In this document: positions 43,290 through 62,599 of the stretch, in pieces
How positions within the stretch are numbered: the first letter of the stretch is position 1
Layout: each line of letters opens with the position of its first letter
Assembly (NCBI RefSeq): GCF_001040705.1
Contig: NZ_CVQP01000012.1
Coordinates: 62,001 to 126,000, forward strand
From: Rhodococcus sp. RD6.2
GTDB lineage: Bacteria; Actinomycetota; Actinomycetes; Mycobacteriales; Mycobacteriaceae
Length of the DNA: 64,000 bases
Direction of reading: 5' to 3'
Program-made: the position numbers and the translations under genes
Notes under the pieces: generated by a model
What the model was told of the DNA's origin: nothing
Database searches by the model: none
What the model saw: the letters and a program-made list of their open reading frames with translations, nothing else

Positions 43290-43376
43290 GGAAGCGTGGC
43301 AGAGCGGCCGAATGCACTCGCCTTGAAAGCGAGCTTGGGTAACACCAACGGGGGTTCAAATCCCTCCGCTTCCGCC
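43290..43376 (+). tRNA. tRNA-Ser (anticodon UGA)
   Basis: The acceptor arms GGAAGCG (43290-43296) and CGCTTCC (43367-43373) pair fully. The anticodon stem CTCGC/GCGAG encloses CTTGAAA with anticodon TGA; there is a long variable arm (TTGG/CCAA) typical of serine tRNA, and a T-arm with loop TTCAAAT. Discriminator G, then CC; the final A of CCA is not encoded. The last 23 bases form the attachment core of the island, and the tRNA stays complete because the core restores its 3' end. Confidence 0.96.
43354..43376 (+). repeat. attL core (tRNA-Ser 3' end)
   Basis: 23 bases identical to 62538-62560, running from the T-stem of the tRNA to its CC end. This is the usual crossover segment for tyrosine integrases that use tRNA genes. 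Confidence 0.92.
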
Positions 43377-43410: not shown

Positions 43411-43414
43411 ATTT

Positions 43415-44545
43415 TCATGCCCAGACTGCGCTCCCGACGGGCGCTTCTGCCCACACTTTGCCCACACTCGCGCGCGCCCGCGCGGCATCGAGGGCCGTTC
43501 CCACGGCCTCCAGGTCGTCGTCGAACAGGTCCGCGTAGGTGTCCAGAGTCATGGCCGCGCTCGCGTGCCCGAGGATCCGCTGTAGCGCCTTTACGTTGAC
43601 GCCAGCCGACACCCCCAGGGACGCCGCCGTGTGCCGCAGATCGTGTGGAGTGAGCCGAGGGACACCCGATCGCTCGACGGCCTTCGTGAACCACCCGGTG
43701 AAGCTCACAGGCCGCAGTAGGTGCCCGCCACCGCGGCCGGGGAACACCAGGTCGCCCCGGCTTCGGCCCTCGCACTGCTGAGCGAGCATCTCGACGAGGA
43801 ACGGTGGGACGGGCACTGTCCGGTGCACGTGGGACTTTGGGGTGCCGACGTGAAGCTCTCCGTTCACCTGCACCGCGTTGTCGACGACGGTCAGCCGCCG
43901 GCGCAATAGGTCCAGGTGCTCGACGCGTAGCGCGATCGCCTCACCCCACCGCAGGCCGCAGTAGGCCAAGAGGTAGACCAGGACGTCGTGGTGGCCAGAT
44001 TTCTCCGCGAGCGCCTGCACCTGCTCGTGCGTGAGGTACACCCGCTGCTTGCGCTGCTTGCGTGGCAGGTTCTCGACGCCGCGGGCTGGGTTACTCGCCA
44101 ACCGCTTGGCCTTCACGGCTCCGTCCATGATCGACGCGAGGACGCCGTAGGCGCGGATGACGACGGTCGCACCCTTGCCTGCGCGCACCAGCTCCGTGAT
44201 CCACCGCTCGACGGCATCGAGGTCGACGTCCGCGATGCGGGTGCGTCCCCACCGTGGCTGTACGTGGACCCGCCAGGCCGTCTCAAGGCTGTTGTAGGTC
44301 GACGGCTTCACGTCGACCTGCTTGCGTTCGAGCCAGTCCGCGCCGAGTTCGCTGACCGTGATGCGGCCGAGAGCCGGGGCGACGTAAGACCCGGTCATCT
44401 TCTCGACCTCGACCGTCGCCGCGAACATCTCCGCGTCGCGCTTCGTGCGGAACCCCCGCTTGTCGGTCTGCTTGTGGTCGGGGGTCCGGTAGCGGACGCG
44501 GTAGCGCTTGCCGGACTTCGTCTCATACGGCTCAATCGTCGCCAT
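43415..44545 (-). CDS. int: Tyrosine-type site-specific integrase
   Basis: A 376-residue phage-type integrase: N-terminal arm-binding domain (SGKRYRVRYRTPDHKQTDKRGFRTKRDAEMFAATVE), SAM-like core-binding domain (VSELGADWLERKQVDVKPSTYNSLETAW) and catalytic domain with the Arg of CGLRWGEAI, HDLRH, the His of LGHAS and the nucleophile Tyr of LDTYADLF. It catalyses recombination between the tRNA-Ser site and the circular island. It sits directly beside attL and its start overlaps the repressor gene by 14 bases, so repressor and integrase are made together. The C-terminal tail contains the SVGKVWA sequence that is also found near the right end. Confidence 0.95.
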   Translation of the reverse strand: MATIEPYETKSGKRYRVRYRTPDHKQTDKRGFRTKRDAEMFAATVEVEKMTGSYVAPALGRITVSELGADWLERKQVDVKPSTYNSLETAWRVHVQPRWGRTRIADVDLDAVERWITELVRAGKGATVVIRAYGVLASIMDGAVKAKRLASNPARGVENLPRKQRKQRVYLTHEQVQALAEKSGHHDVLVYLLAYCGLRWGEAIALRVEHLDLLRRRLTVVDNAVQVNGELHVGTPKSHVHRTVPVPPFLVEMLAQQCEGRSRGDLVFPGRGGGHLLRPVSFTGWFTKAVERSGVPRLTPHDLRHTAASLGVSAGVNVKALQRILGHASAAMTLDTYADLFDDDLEAVGTALDAARARASVGKVWAEAPVGSAVWA

Positions 44546-45233: not shown

Positions 45234-45248
45234 GCTGTCAGCTTACTG

Positions 45249-45319: not shown

Positions 45320-45346
45320 TAGACAGATGAACAGGTGGTTGTGGTG

Positions 45347-45562
45347 ATGCATATCGAAACCGAGCTGGCGACGCCCGAAGAGGTGGCGGAGTTCATGCGT
45401 ACGTCGACCGGGCGATTGGCTCAGCTGCGCTACAAGGGAGGCGGCCCGCGGTTCGTTCGGGATGGGCGCAGGGTGCTCTACCGGTGGACCGACGTCCACG
45501 CCTGGGTTGACGAGCAGGTCCATGTGCGCACCGATCGCCGTGCCAACACCGCCGGGGCGTAG
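45347..45562 (+). CDS. xis: Excisionase-like MerR/AlpA-type small DNA-binding protein
   Basis: A 71-residue protein with a winged-helix of the excisionase type: ATPEEVAEFMRTSTGRLAQLRYKGGGPRFVRDGRRVLYRWTDVHAWVDEQ. This is the standard layout of actinobacterial Xis and AlpA-like proteins that direct the integrase to excision. ATG 45347 is used; a GTG four codons earlier is possible. It is the first gene rightward from the operator region, which suits control by the repressor. Confidence 0.85.
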   Translation: MHIETELATPEEVAEFMRTSTGRLAQLRYKGGGPRFVRDGRRVLYRWTDVHAWVDEQVHVRTDRRANTAGA

Positions 45563-45637
45563 CGGCGTGCGCCGGGGTGTCCTCAGTGCCGCGCGGCTGC
45601 GCATCGTGGCTCGTGGTATCTGCTTCAGGAGTAGTCG

Positions 45638-47956
45638 ATGGTCGGCGAGGGGCTGACCGCGCAGGCCGGCGAAGTGGGCTTGCGGTGCATCGACATTCGA
45701 CCGGACTCTGTCGACTGGCCGGCGTCGGTTCGTGAAGCCCTGGACGTAGCTGACGGGCTGATCGGTGCCGGGATCCCCGTGTTCGTGTGCAAGCCCGATG
45801 GCGTGGGAGCTGACTGGAACCCGCGTGGCGGCACCGGTGGGACTGGCTACTTTCTGCGCAGGGGCTGGCAGAACACCGTTGCTGACCCCGCGGAGCTCGA
45901 CGAGTTCGAGCCAGGCTGCGCTCTGGCAATGGTATGCGGGCATGGGCTCGACGGGATCGACGTCGACCTGTACAAGGACGATCAGGGCGAGGCGCGCCTG
46001 CGCGCCGAGGGTGTCATGCCTGCCGTCTACGCGGAGGCATCGACACCGTCCGGCGGCAAGCACTTCCTCGTGGCCTCGTTGGGGATTCATAGCCGCGACG
46101 GCGTTCGGGCCGGCCTGGACGTCAAGGCCGGAACGAGCTCGGGAGGCCGTGGATTTCTGTTCATTGCACCCACAGTGAAGCTGAGCAAGGCCTCGGGTAA
46201 ACCTCGCGCGTACAGCTGGGTGCAGCGCCCGGGTCTCCAGCGGCTCGGTTCCGCCATTCGCGACGACCACAGCGGGCACGAGTTCGCGAAGCTCGTCGAG
46301 GCGGCGAGGACTGAAGCCAGGAGGCGGCCGCATCCGGTTGTGGCCACGCCTTCCACACCTGTCGAAGTGGATCCTGTCGAGTACTCGGCGATGCCACCTG
46401 GTCTCTGCCGACGGATCGATGCCTACATCGCCAAGGTCGTCGACGGCACCTGCAATGACCTCAAGACTGCGCACGCGTGGCCCGAGGGCTACAGGGATGA
46501 CCGGGGCCGCGGCTGGGAGAAGTGCACCGCAGATGCGGCTATGCGATTGGGGCAGCTGGCAAGGGCGGCCTGGAACAGGCTGACACTCGAAGACGCCTTC
46601 GATGTCCTCATTCGCAACGCGCCGGTGGACGGGGCATGGACTGAAGTAGATGTGGTGGACAAATGGCGAAACCAAAGTGGGAGAGGGGATGCGGCCCCGC
46701 ACCCGCCCTTCGCCGCAGCGGAGCTGGCGGAACTCGTGGCACATCAGCACAACATGGAGGTGACAAGCCAAGTGGATAGTGAAGCGTCGCACGGTAGAGC
46801 GGATGTCTCCGAAGGCGCGGAGAGCCGCTCCACCTGGGCTCCGGTAGACCTGCGATCCATCCTGGCCGGGGCGAACGAGCAACTGCGGCCGACGCTCTTC
46901 CCTCGCACCGACGGTCAGAGCCTGCTCTACTCCGGTATGGTTCACAGCTTCCACGGAGAGTCGGAGTCTGGGAAGTCGCTCTTGGTGCAGATCGAGGCCG
47001 CCCGGCTGATCCTGTCCGGCAAGAACGTCCTCTACCTTGACTTCGAATCTGACCCGTCATCGGTTGTCCGGCGGCTGGAGATGCTGGGGGCCGACTCGAA
47101 GGCGATCATCGACCACTTTGACTACCGGCGTCCGGAAGCGAAGCCGGACAATGATTTCGAGCGGCCGGAATGGCTCGCCATGCTGAGTCGACAGTACGAC
47201 CTCGCGGTCATCGACGGCGTCACCGATAGCCTGGGCGTATTCGGAGGTTCGTCGAGCAAGGACAACGATGCCGTGGCGAGTTGGATGAGGGCGCTGCCAC
47301 GGCCGCTGGCGACCAAGACCGGTGCAGCGGTGGTGATGGTCGACCACGTCACCAAGGACCGGGAATCGCGGGGCCGCTTTGCAATCGGAGGCCAAGCGAA
47401 GATGGCCGGCCTGACCGGTGCCGCCTACATCGTCGAGGTGACTAAGCCGATTGGACGGGGGATGAAGGGCGTCATCGAGCTTCGGGTCGGTAAGGACCGC
47501 CCAGGTGCCGTACGCGCGCAATGTGGCAGCTACCGAAAGTCGGACCGCACCCAGCTTGCGGCGCGGGTCGTCCTCGACTCGACGGGGTCGATCACGGTGG
47601 TGAGCATCGAGCCACCGGATCTGCTTGTGCAGGATGAGCATCCTGGCGACGAAGGGCGGCAGCCAGAGCTCATGGAGCGCGCCCACCGGGCCATCGAGCA
47701 ATCGCCGGGGTTGACGAAGAGCGGGATCGTGAAGGTCCTTGGGGGCAACAGGTCGAGGGTGTTGAAAGCGATCGACGTCCTGGTGGAAGACGGCAGGGTG
47801 GCGGTCGAGGAAGGCCCGCGGCGCGCACAGTTGCTGACCATTAAGAAGTTCCAGGAGACAGAGAACCAGTCGTCTGGAGAGATGACCGGTACTGGTTCTG
47901 GTTCCTATACCGAGGAACCAGAGAACCAGTACCCGAACAGTTCTGGGAACTTGTGA
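45638..47956 (+). CDS. Replication protein: primase-polymerase fused to a RepA-like RecA-fold ATPase
   Basis: A 772-residue protein. The N-terminal half resembles bifunctional primase-polymerase domains (AGIPVFVCKPDG, TGGTGYFLRRGW, LAMVCGHGLDGIDVDLYKDD with the metal-binding Asp pair, ASTPSGGKHFLV, FIAPTVKLS). From about residue 440 comes a RecA-fold ATPase of the RepA type (HGESESGKSLL Walker A, VLYLDFESD, YDLAVIDGVTDSLG Walker B, VVMVDHVTKD) and then a winged-helix-like end (SPGLTKSGIVKVLGGNRSRVLKAIDVLVEDGRV). It should initiate replication of the excised island. AGGAG precedes ATG 45638. The Q/N/S-rich tail is encoded by DNA with repeats of GGTTCTGG and its complement. Confidence 0.85.
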   Translation: MVGEGLTAQAGEVGLRCIDIRPDSVDWPASVREALDVADGLIGAGIPVFVCKPDGVGADWNPRGGTGGTGYFLRRGWQNTVADPAELDEFEPGCALAMVCGHGLDGIDVDLYKDDQGEARLRAEGVMPAVYAEASTPSGGKHFLVASLGIHSRDGVRAGLDVKAGTSSGGRGFLFIAPTVKLSKASGKPRAYSWVQRPGLQRLGSAIRDDHSGHEFAKLVEAARTEARRRPHPVVATPSTPVEVDPVEYSAMPPGLCRRIDAYIAKVVDGTCNDLKTAHAWPEGYRDDRGRGWEKCTADAAMRLGQLARAAWNRLTLEDAFDVLIRNAPVDGAWTEVDVVDKWRNQSGRGDAAPHPPFAAAELAELVAHQHNMEVTSQVDSEASHGRADVSEGAESRSTWAPVDLRSILAGANEQLRPTLFPRTDGQSLLYSGMVHSFHGESESGKSLLVQIEAARLILSGKNVLYLDFESDPSSVVRRLEMLGADSKAIIDHFDYRRPEAKPDNDFERPEWLAMLSRQYDLAVIDGVTDSLGVFGGSSSKDNDAVASWMRALPRPLATKTGAAVVMVDHVTKDRESRGRFAIGGQAKMAGLTGAAYIVEVTKPIGRGMKGVIELRVGKDRPGAVRAQCGSYRKSDRTQLAARVVLDSTGSITVVSIEPPDLLVQDEHPGDEGRQPELMERAHRAIEQSPGLTKSGIVKVLGGNRSRVLKAIDVLVEDGRVAVEEGPRRAQLLTIKKFQETENQSSGEMTGTGSGSYTEEPENQYPNSSGNL

Positions 47957-48291
47957 AGAACTGCTCAGAACCGGTTGCAGGCCAGGCCTGAGCTTGGGAT
48001 AGGACCTCGTGGACTGATGTGAGTAGTCGGTCAGTTTCGGTTCTGGTCAGAAGTACGAATTACCCGGCTCGGCTCATGAGAAGTGCAAAGTTCCACTGAA
48101 CTGTTCTGCGGGTCCTGGAGTCGACTGCACGGGTCCTACCAGGGCGTTCGCGTATGCCTCTTCTGCCCGGATGCCCTCGAATTAAGTACATGGAAGTGCG
48201 AAGTCGCTTGCACTTGACCTGGCCAGTTGACGCCGTCGGCCATCATGTCCCCTCGACGCGCTCCCGACGCGCCGAGGGGACACGATCGGCC
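47957..48291. other. Non-coding stretch after the replication gene, possible origin
   Basis: About 335 bases without a supported gene between convergent genes. CGGTTCTGGTC at about 48035-48045 and CAGAACCGG at about 47968-47976 continue the family of GGTTCTGG/CCAGAACC half-sites seen in the last 70 bases of the replication gene (47868-47930). The stretch is less GC-rich than the surroundings. A replication origin for the excised island is possible; the terminator 48246-48282 occupies its right end. Confidence 0.4.
48246..48282 (-). terminator. Hairpin terminator of the DUF499 operon
   Basis: Arms 48246-48255 and 48273-48282 pair perfectly over 10 bp, with smaller ACGCG/CGCG-type pairs inside. 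It lies 10 bases after the DUF499 stop on the minus strand, facing the replication gene. Confidence 0.7.
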
Positions 48292-51200
48292 CTACTGCTC
48301 CTCGAACCCGGTCTGCTCGAACTTGAGCGTGTTCGCATTCTCGGAGACCGTGCGGACCTTGGCCTCGTCGAACCCGTCCCTGGCGACGGCGGTGATCTCC
48401 AGTCGGACTTCGAGTTCGACGCCGTCGACCGCGGCGAGGTGCTGGATGACCTCACTGGTGATGCGCCCGAAGTCGCGTGCGTAGAAGTCCGGGTCCAGTG
48501 CGGCGGTGCCGAAGTAGCGGGTCTTCGGCCGGCGCTCCGGCTGCGCGGGTACTGCACGAGTCGACACGGACGGAGCGGTTGTGCTGGTCCGGTTGTCCGG
48601 GGTCGGCGACTCCGTGTCGCCGTCGGACCCGGGCTGGGCCTGCTGCGCCTGCTGGGCTTCGGCGAGGTCGCGTTCCCGTTGCTTCGCCGCACGGCCCGGC
48701 TCGACGAGCAGCAGCGCGTCGATCGTCGCGGGCCTGGATGCACTGTCCGTCGGCAGCAGCAGGCCCGTGTACCTCTCGCCGTCCCACCCGTCGGCGAGGG
48801 CGAAGCCCTGACGCTCCCAGTCGATCGGAGTGTCCAGCGTGGAGAGCACGCCGTCTTCGAGGACGCCGCGGTCCCGCAGCCGAGCGAGGTACGGGTAGGT
48901 GGTGTAGTAGTCCCACAGCGCGCCGAGGCTGATGTGGCCGTCCCGCTCGAACACCGTGTACAACGTGGTGTCGAGGTCGAGGCGAATGCCCCCCGACGCG
49001 CGCTTCAGCACCAACTCGGACTTGTCCACGAGCCGCTTTGCGGTCCGATCGGCCAGGTTGTCGGTGCCGCCTTCGGTCTTGATCGCGTCCAGGTGCAGCG
49101 GACGGGTCGGGTCCGGCTGGGTGGGTACCAGCGCCCAGTGGTACGCGCCGAGCAGTCGATCTCGGGCGGTGGCATCGGCCCGCTTCAGCCGATCCTCGGC
49201 CTGCTTCTTCTGCTGGGCGGTCAGATCGAGCATGCCGTCGGCGTTGTCGCGCACGTACTTCCAGGCAAGGTAGTCGCGGATCGACGCCTGCAGCTCCTCG
49301 TAGCGCGCCGAGTCTGCGGCCAGGAACACGAGCATGTTCCGGTGCGTGCGGGCCCCGCTTCCGCGCCGGTCGAGGACACCTGTCGACCACGTGTATGCCG
49401 GCGACTCCGGGCCCTGACGGCGGTCGTAGACGTGCGACGGCGGCACGATCACCAGCCGCGCCTCCTGACCGTCGGGCACGTCGGACGAGGAGTCCGGGGC
49501 GATGTGCACTGCGGCGAACCCGCTGCCGGTGGGGCTGCGGTGGTTCTGCAGCCGCCGGACGATCTCGGCCCACACATCCTCGGGGTGCAGCCGTTCGGCG
49601 TGGTCGCGGGCGGTGCGGGTGGTGTTGGCCTGGGTGTCGAACCAGAACTGCGTACCGGAGCCGTAAAAGTAGGTGGCCCGGTCGGCGAGCTGGTTCAGCG
49701 CCGAGTGGAAGTTGCCGGGCACATCCCCGGGCAGCGCGGTGCCGAGGAACACCCGAGCCTTGTCGATGCCCTTATGGGAGCCGTGGAGGGTGGGGGTCGC
49801 GCCCATGAACACCGTCCGCGCGAGGCGTTGGGTGATGAACCGTTTGCCGAGCAGGTCCGGGCTGGCATGGTCGACCTGGGCGGGCGCGGAGTGGGCTCCG
49901 TCGACGTCGGCGTCGATGATCACCTTCCACTGGTCTTCGAGGTACTGGGTGATCTCCGTCATCACCTCCGGTTCCCGCAGCGGCACCGAGCCGGGCATGA
50001 TCAGCGGCGCGGTGTCCCCGGCACGCCACAGAGTGCCGACGATGGTGTTCATCAGCCGCAGCACACCGCGGGTGCGTTGGAACCGTTCCAGCGTCGACCA
50101 GTCCTGGTAGAGCCGGTCGAACAGCTCGGGATGCACCGGGTAGGTGGCGCGGATCCGGTCCAGGTAGTCGTTGTCGATGGCCTCGCTGGGAAATTCGCCG
50201 TGGTGGTCCCGGTAGAACTTGACCACCGACTGCGCGGTTGCACCGATCTGCGCGAGCGCCTGCCCGTCCGGGGCGGTGAACAGCCGTCGTCGGACGATCT
50301 CGAACGACTCCTCCGGGTTGGCGGCCTTCCACTGGTCGGCTACCCGGCGCACGACGTTCTGTAGCCTGCGCAGCGCCTCACGGCCGTTCTCGCCGCCGAC
50401 CTCCTCCTCGCTGACCTCGCTGTGCCCGTCGTCGTCGCGAGCCGAGGCGGGAATCGAGATCACCACCAGAACGCCGGGCACCGCTTTCGCCGCCTCGGTG
50501 AGGGTCTGGGCGAAGGTGAACTGGGTGTCAAAGCTGCCGCCCGCGAGATCGTCCTGACCGTAGAGCTGGCGGGCGTAGGAAACCCACTCGTCGACCAGGA
50601 TGACCGCGGGGGCGTAGGCGGCGAACAGCTCGCGCAGGCTGTCGCCCGGGTTCGTAGAGGTGCGGTCGGAGTCGGCGACGATCTCGTAGGCCTCACGTCC
50701 GCCGAGCTGCCAGGCCAGTTCGCCCCACAGCGTGTTGACCCTCGTCCCGTCCGGCTTGGGCTTCATCCCGGAGGCTTGAAGGTGGTTGCCGACGAGGGCG
50801 ACCCTGCCGATCTTCCGGTCGAAGTGGATCGGACCGAGCAGGTCTTGCAGTTCCTGCGGATAGTCGGTGACCGGACGACCGGACGCCAGGTGCCACAGCG
50901 CGAGCATGCTGTGCGTCTTGCCGCCTCCGAAGTTGGTCTGCAGGTTGATCACAGGGGACGCGTTCTTGTCCCCGGAGATGCGCTTTACCGCACGGGTGAT
51001 CAGGTCTTGCAACCCGCCGGTGAGGAAGGTGCGGCGGAAGAACTCGACTGGGTCGGTGTACTCGGGGTCGCCCTCGCCGCGCGCGACCATGGCCAGGTCA
51101 GCGGCGAACTCGGCAGCGCGGAAGTTGCCCTTGGCGACATCGTCGTGGGGGCGCAGCACCTCCCGCCACGGCAGCAGCCCCGCGGAGCCGACCTCGGCCG

Positions 51201-51696
51201 CCCCGGCTGCCTTGACCACCTTGCGGTCCTCCTGTTCGGAGGAGACCCGCCGAAGGTCGACGCGGGAACGTTTGACCTCGTCGGCGGCGTCCGGTGCCCC
51301 GATCGCCCGCAGCATCCGCTCGGCGGTGTCGAGGGCCCGGTAGGCGTCGTCGGCGGAAAACGGCTCGTGGTGGGCCTCGCGGTCGCGCACGTCCCGCAGT
51401 TCGCTTGCCAGGGACTGCTCGGCCCGGGACAGCTTCTCGTTGAACGGGAACCAGCCGGCGATGGCCTTGCCGGTAATGTTCTCGGTGAGCATCCGCAGCC
51501 CATTCTGCGGGTCGACCGGGTTGTACTTCTTCGTCGCGGCGGCACCCTTACCGGCATCCTTGGCGGCGAGCAGCATCGTCCAGTGCTTGTCTGCGGGCAC
51601 CTTGTCGCTGGTCGCCGCGGCGATGAACGGGTCTAGTGACTCGCCGAGCAGTTCCAGTGCGCGGCGGACCCGGTCGCGGTTGCTGATCTTCGCCAT
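48292..51696 (-). CDS. DUF499 ATPase with N-terminal Swt1-type HEPN domain
   Basis: A 1134-residue protein. Residues about 1-145 look like a Swt1-family HEPN domain: RRALELLGESLDPFI at the start and LASELRDVRDREAHHEPFSADDAYRALDTAERMLRAIGA, which contains the R-x4-H motif (RDREAH) of HEPN ribonucleases. The rest is a DUF499/COG1483 ATPase with P-loop NFGGGKTHSM at about residue 255, Walker B VILVDEW and the phrase PVHPELFDRLYQDWSTLERFQRTRGVLRLMNTIV, plus a long C-terminal part with a Gln/Pro/Ser linker. ATG 51696 is two bases after the methyltransferase stop. In other genomes this ATPase travels with COG1743 methylases in defence islands; a phage-sensing or effector role is inferred. Confidence 0.87.
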   Translation of the reverse strand: MAKISNRDRVRRALELLGESLDPFIAAATSDKVPADKHWTMLLAAKDAGKGAAATKKYNPVDPQNGLRMLTENITGKAIAGWFPFNEKLSRAEQSLASELRDVRDREAHHEPFSADDAYRALDTAERMLRAIGAPDAADEVKRSRVDLRRVSSEQEDRKVVKAAGAAEVGSAGLLPWREVLRPHDDVAKGNFRAAEFAADLAMVARGEGDPEYTDPVEFFRRTFLTGGLQDLITRAVKRISGDKNASPVINLQTNFGGGKTHSMLALWHLASGRPVTDYPQELQDLLGPIHFDRKIGRVALVGNHLQASGMKPKPDGTRVNTLWGELAWQLGGREAYEIVADSDRTSTNPGDSLRELFAAYAPAVILVDEWVSYARQLYGQDDLAGGSFDTQFTFAQTLTEAAKAVPGVLVVISIPASARDDDGHSEVSEEEVGGENGREALRRLQNVVRRVADQWKAANPEESFEIVRRRLFTAPDGQALAQIGATAQSVVKFYRDHHGEFPSEAIDNDYLDRIRATYPVHPELFDRLYQDWSTLERFQRTRGVLRLMNTIVGTLWRAGDTAPLIMPGSVPLREPEVMTEITQYLEDQWKVIIDADVDGAHSAPAQVDHASPDLLGKRFITQRLARTVFMGATPTLHGSHKGIDKARVFLGTALPGDVPGNFHSALNQLADRATYFYGSGTQFWFDTQANTTRTARDHAERLHPEDVWAEIVRRLQNHRSPTGSGFAAVHIAPDSSSDVPDGQEARLVIVPPSHVYDRRQGPESPAYTWSTGVLDRRGSGARTHRNMLVFLAADSARYEELQASIRDYLAWKYVRDNADGMLDLTAQQKKQAEDRLKRADATARDRLLGAYHWALVPTQPDPTRPLHLDAIKTEGGTDNLADRTAKRLVDKSELVLKRASGGIRLDLDTTLYTVFERDGHISLGALWDYYTTYPYLARLRDRGVLEDGVLSTLDTPIDWERQGFALADGWDGERYTGLLLPTDSASRPATIDALLLVEPGRAAKQRERDLAEAQQAQQAQPGSDGDTESPTPDNRTSTTAPSVSTRAVPAQPERRPKTRYFGTAALDPDFYARDFGRITSEVIQHLAAVDGVELEVRLEITAVARDGFDEAKVRTVSENANTLKFEQTGFEEQ

Positions 51697-51698
51697 TC

Positions 51699-54479
51699 CT
51701 ATTGCTCCTCGTAGTCGAACGTCGCCTGGGACGGCTGCGCGGCGGCCGCGGGCGCGGCTGCGGCGATCTCGTTCCACGCGGTGCCGAGCGCGTTGAACTC
51801 GACGGCGATCTTGGTGAGCTTGCGGTCCTCGGCAATCGAGAACAGCAGGAACGCGAGTTCCTTGCACAGGTCCCGCTCGATCGAGGCGGGCACCCGGCCG
51901 AGCATCGCGGAAGCAGCCGGGATGCCGTGGGTGGAGAGGGCGCGGGTCAGGTGCATCACGACCTCCCACACGCTGATTGACGGATCGGTAGCCGGGTCGT
52001 AGGTCTCGTCGAGCTTGTCCGGGGCAAGCAACGTCACCTTGCCCGCCCGGCTGGTGAGGATCCCGGCGTGGTCGAGGTGGTCAATCGAGGCGTTGCGGGC
52101 TCGGGCGATGTTGTCCGCGTCCCCGTATGCGCCGGGGTCGAACCCGTATTGCCGGAACCAGGCGATCGCGAAGCGGGTGTCCGGGTCGAAGTCGCCCTCC
52201 TGCTCGGCGAGCACCTCGTCGAGGACCTCGTTGATCCGCGCCAGCGCGGCACGGACCCGCATCTTCGAACCGTCGTCCTCCAGTACGGCCGAGTAGCGGG
52301 AGAAGACCGCCATACCCGGACCGATGGCCGCCTGCGGCATGTCCACCGGCGCGATCGCGCCCTGCTGTAGCTCCTTGAGCGCCGTCGGGAGTTCCGCCTT
52401 CAGGGTAGCGATGAACCGGCGACGATCTGTGCGCGTGGCATCTTCTTGGCGCGGGCGCAATGCCAGCAGGATGGACGACGCAAGGGCGTTGGTGCCGACG
52501 CTGATCATCCGACCGCCCCGCTCGCTACGAAGCGGCCACGTCGCGGTCACCGACCATCCGGAGCGGATCATGCCTTCGAGGAGGGTCTCCCAACCTGTGG
52601 ATGCCTCGCCACCCTCGGTGGTCTCGGACTGCTTGAAGGCGTAGTACACGGTGATCGGGTAGTCGGGCAGGGCGGATTCACGCGCGCGCCGGAACACCTC
52701 CCCGAAGCCCTCCTCGAAGAACTTGTGTGCGCCGTCCTTGCCGCCGTGGCGGTATGGGTTGGCAACCAGTTCTTCAGCTTTGGGCACCAACATGGTGCTG
52801 AGCAGGTTCGGATGGATGGAGCGAAGGGAACGACGGAGCCACACATAGAAGTAGTCCGACAGGTCGGAATAGCCGATGTTGTCGTAGTACGGCGGATCTG
52901 TCGAAATCAAGGCTCCGTGGCGAGGACTCTCTATCGCATCACGCTGGAGCGCGGATCCCTTCTTGTCACTGCCGAGGCGGTCCAAGACAGCCGCAGTCCC
53001 TGGGATCGTGTTCGAGAAGTCGCCAGAGGATCCACTGAATGGGTTTACCTCTGCGTAGTCCCAAGTCATGGGAAGCGCCTGGCGGGCGAAGGTCGCTCGG
53101 GTGGCTCCAGTGCCGTGCGACGATCGCCACGTGACGATAGTCGACATATCGTCAGCGACTGTGCTCGACGCCGTTCCGAGGTACGTGGCGACTGCATCCG
53201 CGTAGCTGGCGGCTCCTGTGCCACCCGCTTCGAGGCGGTCGCCTTCGGGTATGCCCGCGTCGAGTGCGTCGGCGAGTACCTTCTCGCGGGCTTCGGCGAC
53301 AAGGTCACTGAAGGTGGTGAGCGCGGTAAGCTGCCGCGCCGTAAATAGGTCGGAGTACTCCTTGAACCCGTACGCCTGGACCCGGAAGCTCGGCGCTTGC
53401 GGGGGTATCTCACCATCCGGAACAGTAGCGGGCCGCCCGACCTTGGCGGCGGCTTCGTGCTCGGGTGTAGGTGCGAGGTAGATGCGAGTGCGGTTACCTT
53501 CGGCCACTGTGGCCATCAGCTGGCTGCCCATCCGTGCGGCACGACCTTCGGCACGGATGTACTTCAACTCGACGGCAGCGCCACACCCGATGCAGGTAGC
53601 ACCGGTGCGACCCACGGTGCCGTCGGTGTCCTCGGTCGGTGCGGACTTGGGGTCGTGTCCGATCGTGAACTGGACCGTGCGATCGGTGACGGTCGGGACG
53701 ACGTAGGCCTCTTTGCCTTTCTTCTTGCTGAGCCACCTCGATCGGACGAGCGGCATGGCGATGCCGCAGGCGGGGTTCGGGCATGTGGCAGTGCGGGCCC
53801 AGATCCACGCGATCACCGTGGCCTGAGAGCCGTCGGCGAGGGTTGCCCTCGGGTAGACGTGCCCGATCCGCTTCTCGGCCTCGTCACGAATCCACTGCCC
53901 GTACCGGCGCACGTCCTCCGCGAGACCGGTGGCCCGCGGCCACGGGTGCGCGAGCTGGCTCTTGCCGACCTCGGGAGACACGGGTGGCCGCCCGGCGAAC
54001 TTCGGTGGGATCTCGATGAGCGCCTTGTTGATCAGCACCGCGACCGGGTTGAGGTCCGACGCGTGGGCCTCCAGTCCGAGGCGTTGGGCTTCAAGGGGGA
54101 TGGTGCCGCCACCGGCGAAGGGGTCGAGGATCGGCGGCGGGTTCCCGCCGGTCGACGCCATGATCTCGTGGTGCGCCTGAGCGAGGAGCTTCTCGTCGTT
54201 GGAGTTCTCCCACACCACTAGCTTCTCGATCAGCTTGTGGAGGCGGGCGCGTTCGGCGGTGACCGCCTCGTCTGTGGGGAACTTGTCCGGGTGCGAGGAG
54301 GGGTCGTCGACCAGCTGCGCGAACAAGACCGCACGGGCTGCGGCGAGCGGCCGTCGCGCCCACCACAGGTGCAGCGTCGAGGGGTGACCGTGGCGGATCG
54401 ACTTCTCGCGCGCGGACTCCTCGTTGATGACCTTGAGCGGAATACCGACCTCGATCAGTTTGCGTTTCGGCGTGCTCAT
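51699..54479 (-). CDS. DUF1156 adenine-specific DNA methyltransferase (COG1743)
   Basis: A 926-residue methylase. The N-terminal DUF1156 part reads KLIEVGIPLKVINEESAREKSIRHGHPSTLHLWWARRPLAAARAVLFAQLVDDP. The SAM-binding motif is DPFAGGGTIPLEAQRLG; a zinc ribbon follows (CPNPACG and CIGCGA), then the catalytic DPPYYDNIGYSDLSDYFYVWLRR (DPPY). It should methylate adenine at N6 and so mark self DNA, as in restriction or BREX-type systems; no specificity subunit is seen, so the target is probably read by the protein itself or its partners. It is the middle gene of the operon: 166 bases after the helicase and two before the DUF499 gene. Confidence 0.92.
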   Translation of the reverse strand: MSTPKRKLIEVGIPLKVINEESAREKSIRHGHPSTLHLWWARRPLAAARAVLFAQLVDDPSSHPDKFPTDEAVTAERARLHKLIEKLVVWENSNDEKLLAQAHHEIMASTGGNPPPILDPFAGGGTIPLEAQRLGLEAHASDLNPVAVLINKALIEIPPKFAGRPPVSPEVGKSQLAHPWPRATGLAEDVRRYGQWIRDEAEKRIGHVYPRATLADGSQATVIAWIWARTATCPNPACGIAMPLVRSRWLSKKKGKEAYVVPTVTDRTVQFTIGHDPKSAPTEDTDGTVGRTGATCIGCGAAVELKYIRAEGRAARMGSQLMATVAEGNRTRIYLAPTPEHEAAAKVGRPATVPDGEIPPQAPSFRVQAYGFKEYSDLFTARQLTALTTFSDLVAEAREKVLADALDAGIPEGDRLEAGGTGAASYADAVATYLGTASSTVADDMSTIVTWRSSHGTGATRATFARQALPMTWDYAEVNPFSGSSGDFSNTIPGTAAVLDRLGSDKKGSALQRDAIESPRHGALISTDPPYYDNIGYSDLSDYFYVWLRRSLRSIHPNLLSTMLVPKAEELVANPYRHGGKDGAHKFFEEGFGEVFRRARESALPDYPITVYYAFKQSETTEGGEASTGWETLLEGMIRSGWSVTATWPLRSERGGRMISVGTNALASSILLALRPRQEDATRTDRRRFIATLKAELPTALKELQQGAIAPVDMPQAAIGPGMAVFSRYSAVLEDDGSKMRVRAALARINEVLDEVLAEQEGDFDPDTRFAIAWFRQYGFDPGAYGDADNIARARNASIDHLDHAGILTSRAGKVTLLAPDKLDETYDPATDPSISVWEVVMHLTRALSTHGIPAASAMLGRVPASIERDLCKELAFLLFSIAEDRKLTKIAVEFNALGTAWNEIAAAAPAAAAQPSQATFDYEEQ

Positions 54480-54645
54480 GCCCGGTACCCGCCCGATTCG
54501 GCGGTGGTGGCCGCGCGGCGGCGGGTGGTCAGGCTCGGGCGGGTCATCGGTGGTCTCCAAAGGTCAGCTATAGGTGTGATGGGTTGGATGAACGGTAACA
54601 ACGTGGCCTGGGCGTACCCGACGCATCGTCGCACGGGTTTGCAGG

Positions 54646-58194
<3,549 letters not shown>

Positions 58195-58362
58195 TTGACG
58201 GACGAGGGCCGGAACGACCGGTCGGCGTGGCGGAGGTGTAGGCGCGGGCCGCCCCGGCGGTGGGGGTCATTCCCGGCTCACGGTCCTGCCCAGCGACCTA
58301 CCATCGAGGGATCTGGAGGACACCCGGCGTGATCCCGCATTCCTCCGCGCGTGTAGGCCTTG

Positions 58363-59595
58363 CTACTCCCCAACGGGATCGGGCAATCCCACTATCTCCC
58401 GCGAAGGAAGCGGGTTGCCTTCCTTGGCGGCGGCGGCGATCACGCGATCCGGCACCCCGAGGAGTCTTGCGTAGCGTTTCCAGCCATCGAGCGCGAGGCG
58501 TGTGATCAATGTGTCACTTCCACCGCCGACTTCAAGCGGTAGACGTCGGGCGTACCTCTCAACCTGCCCGAGCGCGTGACCCGGCCATCTCGAGCGTTCC
58601 GTGGCAAACGCCTGATAATCAGGGTTGACCCACACCTGATCGGCCAGGTCGCCACGATCGATACCCTGCGCTATCAGCCAGTTGGTGGCCTCGACACGGC
58701 CGGCACCTCGCGGCAACCAGACCATGATGGCCTGCAGTCGACCCCGTGCATAGATGGTGACGTTGAACGGCAGTGTTGCTGGTCGCGCCTCCGACGGGGA
58801 TTTCCACCGCGCCCACTTCAGCGGAATACGCCGAGCGACTGCGAGCTCGAGTTCATCGAGGTCATGGCCTGTGATCCCGAGTTCGGTGGCGTGTACAAGT
58901 CGCACGAGGTCGACCGCCTGCCCCTTCACCCAGGCCCAGTCGCCATCCAGCACCGCGCGAGGGCACAGGGTCCGGGGCATCGCCACGACGCGGCGTGGGG
59001 ACAACAGCAGTCCTCGACGCCGGCGGGACTCGACGGCGAAGATCCCCTCGATCAAGAGCTGCGCGCCCAGAACTGGGCCCCAGGGTCCGACTGTGGGCGG
59101 CGCGACATCCCGTCCGCGTTCGTCGGCAGTGGGTTCTCGGTCGAGAGTCGAGTCCAAGAGCGTGTCGGTGGGCTGCGCGGCCGGACGAGGCTTGTCATCG
59201 ACGGTGAGACCTGAGTTCGCTACCGCCAGCCGGGTGATCAGCACGTACAAACCGAGGTCCGAAGTTGCATCGGCAGCAGCGAGGCCGACCTGCGCATCGA
59301 AGCTGGAGTAGATGCTCTCAGCGAGTTCGCGGTCTTCGTGAGCGAGGTGGAGGTAGGCGGCGATCAGCACGTGGGACGACGCCTGCAACTGGCGGTGACG
59401 AAACTCGGCACGCAGCCGGCGGGCGGTGCTCACCGCATCGTCAAGCTGCGGGTAATCGCCGCGGAGGGTTACGAGATCTGCGGGTGCGACCCCACCTTTT
59501 CCAGTCTCGACCTGCTGCCACATACGGATAGCGCGACGCGCTGCCTCTTGCTCACCCGGCTCCCACGCGGTGCTCTGTCGAGGTTCGATGGTCAT
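58363..59595 (-). CDS. Unrecognised 410-residue protein of the defence operon region
   Basis: No family recognised. The N-terminal half is helical (ARRAIRMWQQVETGKGGVAPADLVTLRGDYPQLDDAVSTARRLRAEFRHRQLQ, then HVLIAAYLHLAHEDRELAESIYSSFDAQVGLAAAD), a low-complexity charged linker follows near residue 130-165, and the C-terminal half is mixed with many Trp and Arg (WARWKSPSEARP, NVTIYARGRLQAIMVWLPRG, DTLITRLALDGWKRYARLLG). No signal peptide or membrane helix is seen. AGGAGG precedes the ATG. It lies 168 bases upstream of the helicase on the same strand, so it may be the first gene of the same defence operon or a separate cargo gene. Confidence 0.7.
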   Translation of the reverse strand: MTIEPRQSTAWEPGEQEAARRAIRMWQQVETGKGGVAPADLVTLRGDYPQLDDAVSTARRLRAEFRHRQLQASSHVLIAAYLHLAHEDRELAESIYSSFDAQVGLAAADATSDLGLYVLITRLAVANSGLTVDDKPRPAAQPTDTLLDSTLDREPTADERGRDVAPPTVGPWGPVLGAQLLIEGIFAVESRRRRGLLLSPRRVVAMPRTLCPRAVLDGDWAWVKGQAVDLVRLVHATELGITGHDLDELELAVARRIPLKWARWKSPSEARPATLPFNVTIYARGRLQAIMVWLPRGAGRVEATNWLIAQGIDRGDLADQVWVNPDYQAFATERSRWPGHALGQVERYARRLPLEVGGGSDTLITRLALDGWKRYARLLGVPDRVIAAAAKEGNPLPSREIVGLPDPVGE

Positions 59596-59818
59596 GCAGG
59601 CCTCCTGGCTGGTCGTGTGGCGTGAGTCGATACGGCAGCCCGAACGATCGGGATAGGGGGACAGACGAACCTGCCGAACAGCTGCCCGCGGGGCGAGCGA
59701 ATCCGCTACGGGCTCAAAGTCGAGCTCTCATGGATAGAGGCCCGGTTGTTGCTGGCAACGACGGCCTTGATCGTGGCTGGTGACTACTTGGATCCGCCAC
59801 GGGCAGCACCAAAGCGCG

Positions 59819-60388
59819 CTACGACGAGCTTGCGGTGGGCGCGGACAGATAGCGGTACGCGGTTGCGCGAGAGACACCCAGGACTCGGGCAATGTCCGGA
59901 ACCGAGAGTCCCTGATCCCGCAGCTGGACGGCCTTGGTGGCATCCGCATCGTTGACCTTGCGGGGACGCCCGCCCCGCCGACCGTTCGCTGCGGCCGCAG
60001 CCAGGCCGGCTTGGGTGCGTTCGATCATCGTGTCGCGCTCCAGCTGCGCGAATGCCGCCATGATCGTCAGCATTGCCCGGCCCATCGCGCCCTCGGTCGT
60101 GAGCCCCTCAGTGAGGCTGCGGAACCCGATGCCGCGGGCGCGCAGCTGCTCTACAACGTCCAGGACGTGTCGGGTATTGCGGCCGAGGCGATCCAGCTTC
60201 CACACGGTCAGGACGTCACCCTCGCGGAGGTGGTTGAGGCACTGGTCGAGTTCGGGCCGCGTGGAGGTCGAGCCGCTGACACCGTGGTCGGTGAAAATGC
60301 GCTCCGCGCCGGCCTCATGCAGCGCCGCCTGCTGGAGTTCAGGGTTCTGGTCCGTCGTGCTTACTCGCGCGTACCCGATCACTGCCAT
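59819..60388 (-). CDS. Serine recombinase, resolvase/invertase type
   Basis: A 189-residue small serine recombinase: catalytic domain MAVIGYARVSTTDQNPELQQAAL with the nucleophile Ser in ARVST, VWKLDRLGRNTRHVLDVVEQL, TTEGAMGRAMLTIMAAFAQLERD, and a C-terminal HTH (DATKAVQLRDQGLSVPDIARVLGVSRATAYRYL). This is the size of Tn3 resolvases and DNA invertases. The frame is intact. A 31-base imperfect palindrome (60401-60431) sits 13 bases upstream of its start. No transposase is nearby, so it may be the remainder of a transposon or an own resolution system of the island. Confidence 0.92.
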   Translation of the reverse strand: MAVIGYARVSTTDQNPELQQAALHEAGAERIFTDHGVSGSTSTRPELDQCLNHLREGDVLTVWKLDRLGRNTRHVLDVVEQLRARGIGFRSLTEGLTTEGAMGRAMLTIMAAFAQLERDTMIERTQAGLAAAAANGRRGGRPRKVNDADATKAVQLRDQGLSVPDIARVLGVSRATAYRYLSAPTASSS

Positions 60389-60400
60389 GACCGCCTCCGT

Positions 60401-60431
60401 CTCATAATCCCGTCAAGCTCGGGGTTATGAG
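60401..60431. promoter_or_regulatory. Inverted repeat upstream of the resolvase, candidate res subsite
   Basis: 12-base arms (60401-60412 and 60420-60431) agree at 11 positions around a 7-base centre. A second inverted repeat, GTTGAG-GTGT-CTCAAC, is at 60509-60524. Spacing of about 100 bases between them resembles a multi-site res region; binding is inferred. Confidence 0.5.
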
Positions 60432-60717
60432 AATACTGGTTTTGAGACAGGTTTTCAAGACGGTTGTCGAGTTGGTCAACCCGCGGCGGGGTGAGGCTGC
60501 CGTTCCCGGTTGAGGTGTCTCAACAACCCATCGTTTCTGAGACTGGGCTCCGAGGACGAACGCGCTGCGCTGGCTCGAAGGTGCGGTTTACGATAAAATG
60601 GGAACGTATGTTCGAACACTGATTGGGCGAGTAGCGCTCGGTAAAGACTTGGGGACAGAGCGAAATCGAGGGGTAAGGATGGCGCGATCGCGATGCGGGC
60701 AACCTACACTTCGACCT

Positions 60718-61638
60718 ATGGAGTGCGTCAACGAGGCGGAGGCAGCAGTGCTCATTGCGCTGCTGCACGCTCGGCCACGCAAGATGAGCTGGTCGGCGAT
60801 CGCATCCGAAGTTGCACTGAGAGGCTCGGCCACTGCGCTCTGGGACGAGTGCTTCCCTCCGACGCTTGAAGGAGTAAATGACCTCGATGGACACCTCGCC
60901 CGCGCGTGGGAGAGCCTGGAGGCCTGGCGGAGTGAGGACTTCAAGCTTCTGACAGTGCTCGACGGGGGGTATCCCTCTCGGCTGCGTGAGATCCATCAGG
61001 TGCCGCCGATCGTGTTTGTCCGTGGTCAGCTGCGCGACGACGAGGTTGCGGTGTCCGTGGTTGGCTCCCGCCGCGCTAGTGACCGGGGTCGTGCTGTGGC
61101 AGCGCGAATCGCTGAGGGGCTTGTCGATCGAGGGATTGCTGTCCTATCGGGTCTCGCTGAAGGGATCGACGCAGCCGCGCACACGGCGACGTTGAAGGCG
61201 GGTGGGCGGCCGATCGGTGTAATTGGGACGGGGATCAACCGCTCGTATCCGGCCGGAAACCGGACTCTTCAGGCGGAGGTAGCGAAGCGCGGAGCGGTCG
61301 TATCGCAGTTTTGGCCAGACGCCCCGCCCCAGAAGCACAGCTTCCCGATGCGAAACGCGACGATGTCTGGTCTCGGCCGAGCATCGATCGTCGTAGAGGC
61401 CGGTGAACACAGCGGGGCACGTATCCAGGCTCGCCTGGCGGTTGAACACGGGCGGCCCGTCATTCTTACGGACATGGTTGTTGGTGCAACGACATGGGCA
61501 CGTGACCTTCTGACGCGTCCGGGTGTTTACCTCGCGAACTCGACGGCAGAGTTGATGGATCTGGTCGATCAGCTGACTCAGACTGCCGCCGGTGTAGACG
61601 ACTGGTCGAACGTCCTTCCCGACCTCGTGGACCATTGA
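60718..61638 (+). CDS. DprA/Smf-like protein, ShosA-type antitoxin candidate
   Basis: A 306-residue protein with a short helical head (NEAEAAVLIALLHARPRKMSW, then SAIASEVALRGSATALWDE) and a DprA-type Rossmann domain: VSVVGSRRASDRGRAVAARIAEGL, VLSGLAEGIDAAAHTATL, GVIGTGINRSYPAGN, SFPMRNATMSGLGRASIVVEAGEHSGARIQARLAVEHGRPV. In the chromosome DprA loads RecA on incoming DNA; here it is coupled to a phosphoribosyltransferase inside a mobile island, which fits the ShosTA pair. ATG 60718 is used, with TACACT eight bases upstream; ATG 60679 (GAGGGG upstream) and ATG 60598 are alternatives. TAAAAT at 60594-60599 may be the promoter. The stop overlaps the next start. Confidence 0.85.
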   Translation: MECVNEAEAAVLIALLHARPRKMSWSAIASEVALRGSATALWDECFPPTLEGVNDLDGHLARAWESLEAWRSEDFKLLTVLDGGYPSRLREIHQVPPIVFVRGQLRDDEVAVSVVGSRRASDRGRAVAARIAEGLVDRGIAVLSGLAEGIDAAAHTATLKAGGRPIGVIGTGINRSYPAGNRTLQAEVAKRGAVVSQFWPDAPPQKHSFPMRNATMSGLGRASIVVEAGEHSGARIQARLAVEHGRPVILTDMVVGATTWARDLLTRPGVYLANSTAELMDLVDQLTQTAAGVDDWSNVLPDLVDH

Positions 61639-62399
61639 GCTTGGTGGAAGAGGTAAGCCGTGAGCTCGTTGCCAGCGCGGGCGGCTATCTACGAAACGTG
61701 GTGCGCGTCTCTGGTGTGACTTGTGAGGTCTGTAGGACGCCGGTTGAGCAGCCGTACGTGCGGTGCTTTCGGTGCCACTCCGCGGCGAGCGGTCTCTCCA
61801 GTGGGCGTCTAGCGGATGTTGTCGTCCCGTTGACGTACGCGGTTGGCGGGCAGCAATCGGGCTACCTTCTGCGGCACTATAAGGACGACGTTTCACCGGC
61901 TACTCGGTTGCGTCTGCAGCAGACCATTAGCAGGATCATCGTCCTTGGGATCGTCTGTCACGAGCGATGTATCGCCGAATCAGTTGGTCGGCCGGTCAAC
62001 GTGCGGATGACGATCCCGTCGCTCAGCGGGCGGGCAGGAGTGCATCCACTTGAGCAGCTTGCGCGCACGATGCAGGCGGTAGGAGAGCTTCCTGCGTTGG
62101 TGAAGTCCGACCGGGCGACCTCGCAGCGAGTGGTCAGCGCGTCACAGTTCGAGCTTGCCCCAGGCAGCGACGTCGTCGGCAAGCATGTCTTGCTGATCGA
62201 CGACGTATGGACGACGGGGTCGCGCGCGCAGTCCGCTGCGCTCTGCGTTAGGGCGGCTGGCGCTTCCGCGGTGTCGGTCCTTGTGGTTGCACGGTGGCTG
62301 GACCCGAACTTTGGGCCGACTGGCCCATTCATCAAGAGCAGGCTGACGTCGGACTACGACCCGGCCACATGTCCAGTCACTGGTGGAGCGTGCCCATAG
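61635..62399 (+). CDS. Phosphoribosyltransferase-domain protein, ShosT-type toxin candidate
   Basis: A 254-residue ComF-like protein. An N-terminal four-cysteine segment (CEVCRTPVEQPYVRCFRCHS) resembles a zinc ribbon; YLLRHYKDD follows, and the C-terminal type I phosphoribosyltransferase domain has the PRPP loop HVLLIDDVWTTGSRAQSAALCVRAAGA. Start TTG 61635 overlaps the stop of the DprA-like gene (TTGA); GTG 61644 is possible. PRPP-binding residues are intact, so it should be active. In the ShosTA system the phosphoribosyltransferase is the toxic partner and the DprA-like protein neutralises it; here the assignment is by domain pairing and island context. Confidence 0.83.
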   Translation: MSLVEEVSRELVASAGGYLRNVVRVSGVTCEVCRTPVEQPYVRCFRCHSAASGLSSGRLADVVVPLTYAVGGQQSGYLLRHYKDDVSPATRLRLQQTISRIIVLGIVCHERCIAESVGRPVNVRMTIPSLSGRAGVHPLEQLARTMQAVGELPALVKSDRATSQRVVSASQFELAPGSDVVGKHVLLIDDVWTTGSRAQSAALCVRAAGASAVSVLVVARWLDPNFGPTGPFIKSRLTSDYDPATCPVTGGACP

Positions 62400-62422
62400 C
62401 CGCTGGGTGGATCACCGAGGCG

Positions 62423-62445
62423 TGCCCACATTTTGCCCACACTTG
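62423..62445. repeat. Right-end copy of a 23-base sequence also present in int
   Basis: TGCCCACATTTTGCCCACACTTG-like sequence (two TGCCCACA units) that agrees at 21 of 23 bases with 43448-43470 near the left end, in the same orientation. It lies about 93 bases inside attR; the left copy lies about 72 bases inside attL and codes for SVGKVWA of the integrase. Either arm-type integrase sites or a remnant of an earlier int 3' end. Confidence 0.55.
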
Positions 62446-62537
62446 CCCGCAAAGCGGGGTGATCTGGCGCTATCCCGAGTGAGCTGTCACCGCAGGTAAC
62501 GCCCGGTTTCCGGCTCTGACCAGCAGGGCTCGGCAGA

Positions 62538-62560
62538 GTTCAAATCCCTCCGCTTCCGCC
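62538..62560 (+). repeat. attR core
   Basis: Exact copy of the last 23 bases of the tRNA-Ser gene (43354-43376). The bases to its left do not match the tRNA, which shows where the crossover segment ends. This marks the right boundary of the island. Confidence 0.92.
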
Positions 62561-62565
62561 AACAG

Positions 62566-62599
62566 GTCAGGGGGCGGTCCTCATGGACCGCCCCCTGAC
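62566..62599 (+). terminator. Hairpin next to attR, probable original tRNA-Ser terminator
   Basis: A perfect 15-bp stem (62566-62580 with 62585-62599), loop TCAT, five bases beyond the attR core. In the uninterrupted chromosome it would directly follow the tRNA-Ser gene. Confidence 0.8.

Follow-up and report, generated by a model that had tools for sequence, protein, structure and literature searches.

We analysed a 64,000-nucleotide stretch of DNA from Rhodococcus sp. RD6.2 (contig NZ_CVQP01000012.1, positions 62,001 to 126,000; hereafter, the window) and found a three-gene Hma operon (hmaA, helicase; hmaB, methylase; hmaC, ATPase) in which the two ends of HmaB have diverged in different ways. 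The N-terminal part of HmaB, which holds the predicted target-recognition insert, is inherited largely independently of HmaA and HmaC, whereas the C-terminal part co-diverges with both. It is fairly likely that HmaB determines the target sequence of both marking and attack and docks to its partners through its C terminus, within the mechanism proposed below.

The three adjacent, collinear minus-strand genes matched the PADLOC profiles of HmaA, HmaB, and HmaC at 1359.2, 1120.6, and 883.2 bits, respectively, far beyond chance, and all three component matches fall in adjacent genes, as PADLOC asks of Hma. By sequence, the operon is thus an intact-looking Hma, which also belongs to the Type-1 BREX-related (BR) class and is carried by an integrase island; its function is predicted.

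Co-divergence of HmaB with HmaA and HmaC

At an E-value of 1e-50, HmaB was present in 35 of 301 genomes of the family, the window's included, and 30 of the 37 HmaB places besides the window were fetched with up to 20 kb of sequence. Together with 79 loci from genome_contigs, taken from the best 80 HmaB matches listed, they gave 109 loci, duplicates included (e.g., L067/L124 and L070/L107). All three genes were found in 85 of them, 14 had hmaB and hmaC, 5 had hmaA and hmaB, and 5 had hmaB only, several of the incomplete loci being contig ends. This neighborhood survey bears out the co-occurrence of the three families expected in a preliminary description of the window, which had been made from the DNA sequence alone. 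From the 85 three-gene loci, we removed 16 in which one or more of the reconstructed proteins did not reach the length limit (likely through start-codon trimming or contig ends) and 1 that was a duplicate; the other 68 and the window formed a set of 69 complete loci, whose pairwise identities were compared.

In this set, the identities of HmaA and HmaC were tightly correlated (r = 0.94). Against the mean of these two, HmaB residues 151 to 540 gave an r of 0.39, residues 541 to 700 gave 0.61, and residues 701 to 926 gave 0.89, with a bootstrap interval of 0.36 to 0.60 for the difference between the last block and the first. When HmaA and HmaC were cut into 60-column alignment windows, these tracked the other protein at 0.63 to 0.90, except for HmaC 996 to 1058 (0.48). 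The corresponding windows of HmaB reached 0.09 to 0.53 with HmaA/HmaC when they started up to about column 513, 0.53 to 0.70 at 540 to 720, and 0.79 to 0.87 from about 720 onward. Among the 24 loci of the family alone, which had been selected by E-value, HmaB 151 to 540 had an r of 0.19 with HmaA and 0.13 with HmaC, and HmaB 701 to 926 had 0.91 and 0.87, respectively.

Pairs of loci with a close backbone (HmaA identity of at least 0.80 and HmaC identity of at least 0.75) gave the same picture; there were 91 such pairs, which come from 28 loci and are not independent. Their HmaB 151 to 540 identity averaged 0.545, compared with 0.527 in all other pairs, and their HmaB 701 to 926 identity averaged 0.769, compared with 0.500 elsewhere, and was at least 0.70 in all 91. 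As for phylogeny, 54 splits of the HmaA+HmaC tree had a support of at least 0.9; 13 of them recurred in the tree of HmaB 1 to 540 and 33 in that of HmaB 701 to 926, with 42 in the tree of HmaA alone and 48 in that of HmaC alone. Placing each partition on the HmaA+HmaC tree cost 1319 log-likelihood units for HmaB 1 to 540 (538 sites), 138 for HmaB 701 to 926 (225 sites), 309 for HmaA (1157 sites), and 73 for HmaC (1126 sites). The loss per site was 2.45 for HmaB 1 to 540, 0.61 for HmaB 701 to 926, and 0.065 for HmaC alone.

Exchange of a segment within hmaB

Two loci from two species of one genus (L063 and L065) place sharp edges on the segment concerned. Their HmaA and HmaC proteins are 97% identical over aligned columns, and their HmaB proteins are mostly 87 to 100% identical over residues 1 to 220, about 27 to 83% over residues ~225 to 640, and 93 to 100% over residues 650 to 926. 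The operon DNA is mostly 80 to 98% identical and falls to 52 to 67% only at hmaB codons ~225 to 620; a further divergent stretch of DNA lies beyond the operon. Within the exchanged segment, codons ~331 to 515 are the most variable. The converse case is given by the window and L048, with 71% identity in HmaB 151 to 540 and 55% in HmaA and HmaC.

In an AlphaFold2 model of HmaB (38 sequences; mean predicted local distance difference test score, 83.3; predicted template modeling score, 0.79), a methylase strand is placed at residues 138 to 142 and the DPPY strand at 524 to 527. Between them, the model has helices, a strand-rich part (222 to 335), and long helices (381 to 444), and residues 686 to 914 are almost entirely helical. 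The modeled position of the insert and the helical C terminus agree with passages of PMC12839542, in which the inserted target recognition domain (TRD) follows methylase strand 2 and the methylase C terminus carries helix-turn-helix (HTH)-like domains. Four cysteines of the window's protein (C233, C238, C296, and C299), a candidate for the four-cysteine zinc finger given for the Type-1 BR TRD insert, are invariant in 9 sequences, and of the four only C296 reaches 90% among the 38. Exchange of the HmaB recognition part was not found in the literature searched, which mostly leaves out subscription papers, and the words "recombination" and "domain swap" are absent from the TRD passages of PMC12839542.

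Results that weigh against an exclusive role of HmaB

Several observations count against a full separation of the HmaB N-terminal part, or against leaving recognition to HmaB alone. All HmaB blocks, residues 151 to 540 among them, exceeded 1000 of 1000 permutations, and the decoupling is therefore strong yet not total. The 79 genome_contigs loci were selected by HmaB similarity, and in the set derived from them (n = 46; the window sits in both this and the 24-locus set) HmaB 151 to 540 correlated with HmaA and HmaC at 0.52 and 0.51, compared with 0.86 and 0.89 for HmaB 701 to 926. The tree of HmaB 701 to 926 also departs from the HmaA+HmaC tree (approximately unbiased [AU] test, P = 0.00095; Shimodaira-Hasegawa [SH] test, P = 0.024). 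The AU test, run with 1000 replicates, which the program flagged as too few, excludes all four partitions from the HmaA+HmaC tree, whereas the SH test rejects the two HmaB parts and retains the other two proteins; the contrast is one of size. Besides, some close pairs (e.g., L108/L140) differ over the entire N-terminal two thirds of HmaB and not in the insert alone, so that the exchanged unit varies.

In addition, HmaC 632 to 691 covaries with HmaB after removal of the shared backbone. The partial r was 0.21 with HmaB 331 to 515 (reached by 4 of 300 permutations; permutation 95% point, 0.183 and 0.198 in two runs), 0.32 with HmaB 151 to 540, 0.43 with 225 to 640, and 0.49 with 541 to 640, values that none of 300 permutations reached in the last three cases. 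Some HmaA stretches attained a partial r of 0.16 to 0.37 with HmaB; among the best five alignment windows per block, HmaC 360 to 419 and 662 to 721 and HmaA 440 to 504, 625 to 684, and 1046 to 1105 were lower than HmaC 632 to 691. Since the HmaC signal is weakest with the HmaB part likeliest to read sequence, this stretch may be a contact with the HmaB methylase core; judged by covariation, it leaves room for a share of HmaC in recognition.

Proposed mechanism and alternatives

We propose that HmaB recognizes a short stretch of DNA by means of its exchangeable target-recognition insert and would methylate that sequence on host DNA, probably at adenine N6. On incoming, unmarked DNA, the same HmaB would pass the "unmarked site" state to HmaC and HmaA, to which it would dock through its last ~220 residues. 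The AAA+ ATPase of HmaC may assemble or gate the complex, HmaA would translocate on DNA and cut it through its PD-(D/E)XK-like tail, and the HEPN domain of HmaC might cut RNA as a second, cell-halting response. As the simplest explanation, we infer that HmaB decides what is restricted because, if HmaA or HmaC read the sequence themselves, an exchange of the methylase would leave the host exposed. By analogy, specificity set by the methylase has a precedent in PglX of BREX, as passages of PMC11341690 describe it. The preliminary description had pictured a restriction-like operon with the methylase as self-marker, the helicase as scanner of DNA, and the HEPN/DUF499 protein as effector. Its restriction-like operon and self-marking methylase are retained, but the comparison of relatives suggests other roles for the remaining parts: sequence recognition would come from HmaB, DNA would more likely be attacked by HmaA with its PD-(D/E)XK-like tail, and HEPN would act on RNA as an additional effector.

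It could also be that specificity is shared with HmaC or lies in it, a C-terminal RNA recognition motif-like domain or another part of HmaC reading the invader and HmaB serving as self-marker only; we regard this as unlikely. Such a role is proposed for Type-1 BR in passages of PMC12839542, which call the HmaC C terminus hypervariable and give it a role in recognition, and the poor coupling of HmaC 996 to 1058 to HmaA, reported above, fits it. However, the adjoining C-terminal stretch 1059 to 1118 tracks HmaA at an r of 0.82 and residues 814 to 995 do so at ~0.85 to 0.90, while HmaC 996 to 1058 reaches only 0.09 with HmaB 151 to 540 and by eye resembles a linker rich in P, Q, and S. Alignment windows over HmaC 996 to 1118 gave no signal with HmaB 331 to 515 (partial r, -0.11 to -0.01). 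HmaC 996 to 1058 was accordingly rejected as a second recognition region, as it does not track the HmaB insert and is linker-like. The covariation of HmaC 632 to 691 with HmaB likewise speaks for a part of HmaC in recognition, yet it is strongest with the methylase core.

A restriction that is not sequence specific, with HmaA and HmaC responding to some general feature (for example DNA ends, the state of replication, or a phage protein), would likewise permit the HmaB insert to change without a matching change elsewhere; HmaB specificity could then drift freely, and methylation would be an off-switch or serve another purpose. General cues are what helicase-nuclease effectors of other systems respond to, and HamAB of Hachiman is said in an abstract to do so. 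Free drift, however, explains neither the HmaB C terminus locked to HmaA and HmaC nor the block replacement with sharp edges in L063/L065, and we hold this reading to be quite improbable. Least probable to us is a non-defense role in which dependence on methylation stabilizes the island (a selfish restriction-modification addiction module) and phage defense is secondary. The integrase island with its adjoining ShosTA-like pair would suit it, as would the plasmid matches, since 73 of 174 matching plasmid records carry 80% or more of HmaB at a single place. Addiction and defense are not mutually exclusive, however, and a Halomonas study is cited in PMC12839542, in a passage on the helicase, as confirming phage defense by an HmaA-type helicase. 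As regards the preferred reading, in which HmaB sets the specificity, no experiment on how Hma tells self from foreign was found in the literature searched, and the co-divergence result makes the role of the HmaB insert directly testable.

Genes and predicted protein features

The large, collinear, and nearly touching genes with helicase, DUF3883, methylase, and DUF499 P-loop motifs named in the preliminary description are all present. In the 5'-to-3' direction of the minus strand, the order is a 410-amino-acid (aa) open reading frame (ORF), hmaA, hmaB, and hmaC (Table 1). The gap between hmaB and hmaC is 2 bp, and that between hmaA and hmaB is 166 bp, which shrinks to 85 bp with 54560 as the hmaB start. 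Conservation of motifs was read from alignments of family relatives with the window, and the catalytic motifs of all three proteins look intact.

HmaA has the Pfam domains Helicase_C, SNF2-rel_dom, and NOV_C, the last (DUF3883 region) at residues 1058 to 1142 with 55.4 bits. Its motifs are DDPGAGKT (153), DEAH (254), TATPH (291), QRFGRIHRIGQ (619), NNPGYDI (1083), and IEVKG (1101); Walker A and DEAH are kept in 28 of 29 rows (1 gapped), and the D and E-x-K residues of the tail are aligned in 27 of 29 (the other 2 gapped). HmaA thus carries the C-terminal PD-(D/E)XK-like nuclease looked for in Type-1 BR, predicted to be active from its motifs. HmaB matches DUF1156 at 105.4 bits and contains DPFAGGG (29 of 31 rows, with 1 changed and 1 gapped) and DPPYYDN (DPPY in 31 of 31). 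By domain match and model, it is the DUF1156 methyltransferase with an inserted TRD that Type-1 BR calls for, with a putative N6 chemistry. HmaC is a fusion of HEPN_Swt1 (100.1 bits) with DUF499 (96.5 bits), as is the Type-1 BR ATPase; its PADLOC score comes from a stretch beginning inside the frame. Walker A of HmaC (FGGGKT) is kept in 30 of 30 rows. The HEPN motif in the window, RDREAH, retains the R and H of the RN...H found in the commonest relatives, and these two residues are kept in the eight commonest strings (19 of 30 rows), so HEPN is predicted from its motif to be active. Neither an HmaB profile nor the single HmaC sequence matched any solved structure at an E-value of 0.01.

Table 1. 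Positions of the operon, its proposed modules, and other island features in the window
Feature	Position	Strand	Basis and remarks
hmaA, SNF2-family helicase with C-terminal DUF3883/NOV_C PD-(D/E)XK-like tail, 1182 aa	54646..58194	-	PADLOC, Pfam; start GTG 58194 uncertain
hmaB, predicted DUF1156 amino-methyltransferase, motif order I - insert - IV, 926 aa	51699..54479	-	PADLOC, Pfam, AlphaFold2; likely start ATG 54479, stop 51699
hmaC, N-terminal Swt1-type HEPN + DUF499 AAA+ ATPase, 1134 aa	48292..51696	-	PADLOC, Pfam; likely start ATG 51696, stop 48292
hmaB codons ~225-640, segment exchanged between relatives, most of target-recognition insert	52560..53807	-	L063/L065 breakpoints, decoupling; codons from ATG 54479
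hmaB codons 701-926, C-terminal, proposed docking module co-diverging with HmaA and HmaC	51702..52379	-	
HmaC residues 632-691, possible HmaB contact site	~49624-49803	-	Covariation beyond shared backbone
410-aa ORF upstream of hmaA, function unassigned by profiles	58363..59595	-	Not Hma
attL, 3' end of tRNA-Ser(TGA) (43290-43376), left island end	43354..43376	+	Perfect 23-bp repeat
attR, right island end	62538..62560	+	Perfect 23-bp repeat
Tyrosine integrase just inside attL	43415..44545	-	Phage_integrase 84.6 bits; phrog_1
Primase/AAA_25-like ORF of island	45638..47956		
DprA-like gene, right island end	60598..61638	+	ShosA profile, 202 bits; pair with next
Phosphoribosyltransferase gene overlapping DprA-like gene	61635..62399	+	ShosT profile, weak, 26 bits; pair with previous

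Distribution and earlier descriptions

Among the 30 family places, 27 held all three genes, L058 was without HmaC at a contig end, and L067 and L069 were without HmaA; the A-B-C order of the window was also found in family loci. An order-wide HmaB search yielded few new places. Extra DNA of ~1.8 to 4.5 kb separates hmaA from hmaB or hmaB from hmaC in L054, L055, L059, L073, and others, which fits the "Hma-embedded" candidates mentioned in the part of PMC12111858 consulted. HmaB relatives of 25 to 52% identity were also seen on 31 IMG/VR viral contigs (L168 to L198).

The system has already been described, and the operon in the window adds a further member but no new kind of system; the PADLOC matches and the earlier papers rule out an undescribed defense system. 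The operon is the named Hma, which the preliminary description had missed; it had suggested the profile search that revealed this. Passages of Anantharaman et al. (PMC3710099) described in 2013 a HEPN-DUF499 ATPase in an operon with SNF2-DUF3883 and restriction-modification parts, and operons of COG1743, DUF499, and SNF2/nuclease genes were noted by Bell et al. in 2020 (PMC7641849, in part). Hma was named in 2021 by Payne et al. as a three-gene operon of helicase, methylase, and ATPase, with 1,638 instances in 26 phyla according to the sections of PMC8565338 used here. In 2026 it was renamed among the Type-1 BR systems, for which passages of PMC12839542 give 2446 taxa, a HEPN-fused DUF499 ATPase in 1370 of the 2446, and an active C-terminal PD-(D/E)XK nuclease on the helicase in 79% of taxa.

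The mobile island and its other genes

The preliminary description had placed the operon in an integrated island, which can now be given exact ends: it is a 19.2-kb element at tRNA-Ser, extends from 43354 to 62560, and is bounded by perfect 23-bp repeats. In one congener (G081), both flanks are joined at a single repeat copy (L201, 2617 to 2639) and the island is absent. The right flank alone (62561 to 63800) had weak congener matches only, and the empty site became visible in this one congener when the left flank was added. A second pair of repeats consists of similar 28-mers (43448 to 43475 and 62423 to 62450; 89% identical).

Besides the integrase, the island encodes a resolvase, an ORF with a sub-threshold HTH match, and the primase-like ORF, which matches phage proteins over 34 to 54% of its length among the matches listed; owing to these phage matches, the island may be satellite-like. 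The DprA-like and phosphoribosyltransferase genes are, by their profile matches, a candidate second defense or toxin-antitoxin pair beside Hma.

The range of 48292 to 59595 assigned to the operon in the preliminary description holds for 48292 to 58194 but also takes in a distinct 410-aa ORF (58363 to 59595) that nothing links to the system. This ORF had no PADLOC, NCBIfam, or PHROG match at an E-value of 0.001 (DUF7007 was below its cut-off), and it was found in none of the 109 other Hma loci. Matches occurred in 8 of 301 family genomes, the window's own included; among the other 7, only that in G221 was near full length, and this relative (L003) is ~45% identical, with no Hma protein within 20 kb around it. 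None was detected in 72,556 plasmid records at 1e-5 or in the genome_contigs scan. On the strength of its absence from the 109 Hma loci and of the family-genome, plasmid, and contig searches, the ORF was rejected as a fourth component.

Comparison with known systems

All three proteins of the window match the Hma profiles of PADLOC over most of their length, with no defining difference. HmaB is labeled a 5-methylcytosine methyltransferase in the relevant passage of PMC8565338, whereas the order DPFAGGG-insert-DPPY in the window suggests an amino-methyltransferase (adenine or N4-cytosine). The operon also agrees with the Type-1 BR systems, as far as they are set out in passages of PMC12839542, in its HEPN-DUF499 ATPase, DUF1156 methylase with inserted recognition domain, and helicase with PD-(D/E)XK. 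Recognition is assigned there partly to the HmaC C terminus and the HTH-like domains of the methylase, whereas the co-divergence found here points to the HmaB insert. The Ava_2192-type restriction system in PMC3710099, the earliest description of this architecture that we found, has the same operon of Swt1-like HEPN-DUF499 and SNF2-DUF3883, and no difference from it was found in the passages concerned. NCBIfam anti-phage cut-offs for phospholipase D (PLD)-helicase, DUF499, and DUF1156 were not reached by the Hma proteins.

The relation to DISARM is seen in the helicase: HmaA cross-matches the PADLOC profiles of DrmD (383 bits) and DrmA and misses the NCBIfam DrmD cut-off (378 of 610). In line with the preliminary description, which had called the usual partners of DISARM and BREX absent, the ten main ORFs of the island, scanned with PADLOC (for HmaA, among the matches listed, the best 25 of 59 families), gave no PglZ, BrxC, DrmB, or DrmC, and no separate drmA, drmB, or drmC gene was among these ORFs, the rest of the genome not having been searched for the three drm genes. 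A genome-wide search for PglZ, which did not extend to BrxC, gave one partial match (27 bits over 112 to 178 of 179). The ORF concerned, of 382 aa, lies on a different contig and was rejected as BREX since by eye it resembles a phosphodiesterase relative. Nor did Pfam and PADLOC scans of the ten ORFs give a match to DUF3780, which, like an N-terminal PLD nuclease, would indicate Type-2 BR, or to PglZ, which together with iSTAND would indicate Type-3 BR.

BREX of Types 3 and 1 shares with Hma a related ATPase, methylase, and helicase, and in BREX it is PglX that fixes the motif for methylation as well as defense, according to passages of PMC11341690. If HmaB acts as proposed, Hma would, like BREX and Type I restriction, have a single specificity subunit, from which alone the target could be predicted. 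Loci with HmaB, HmaC, and Mza would then show the same recognition module at work with two sets of effectors that are unrelated to each other; the locus in the window has HmaA and no Mza genes.

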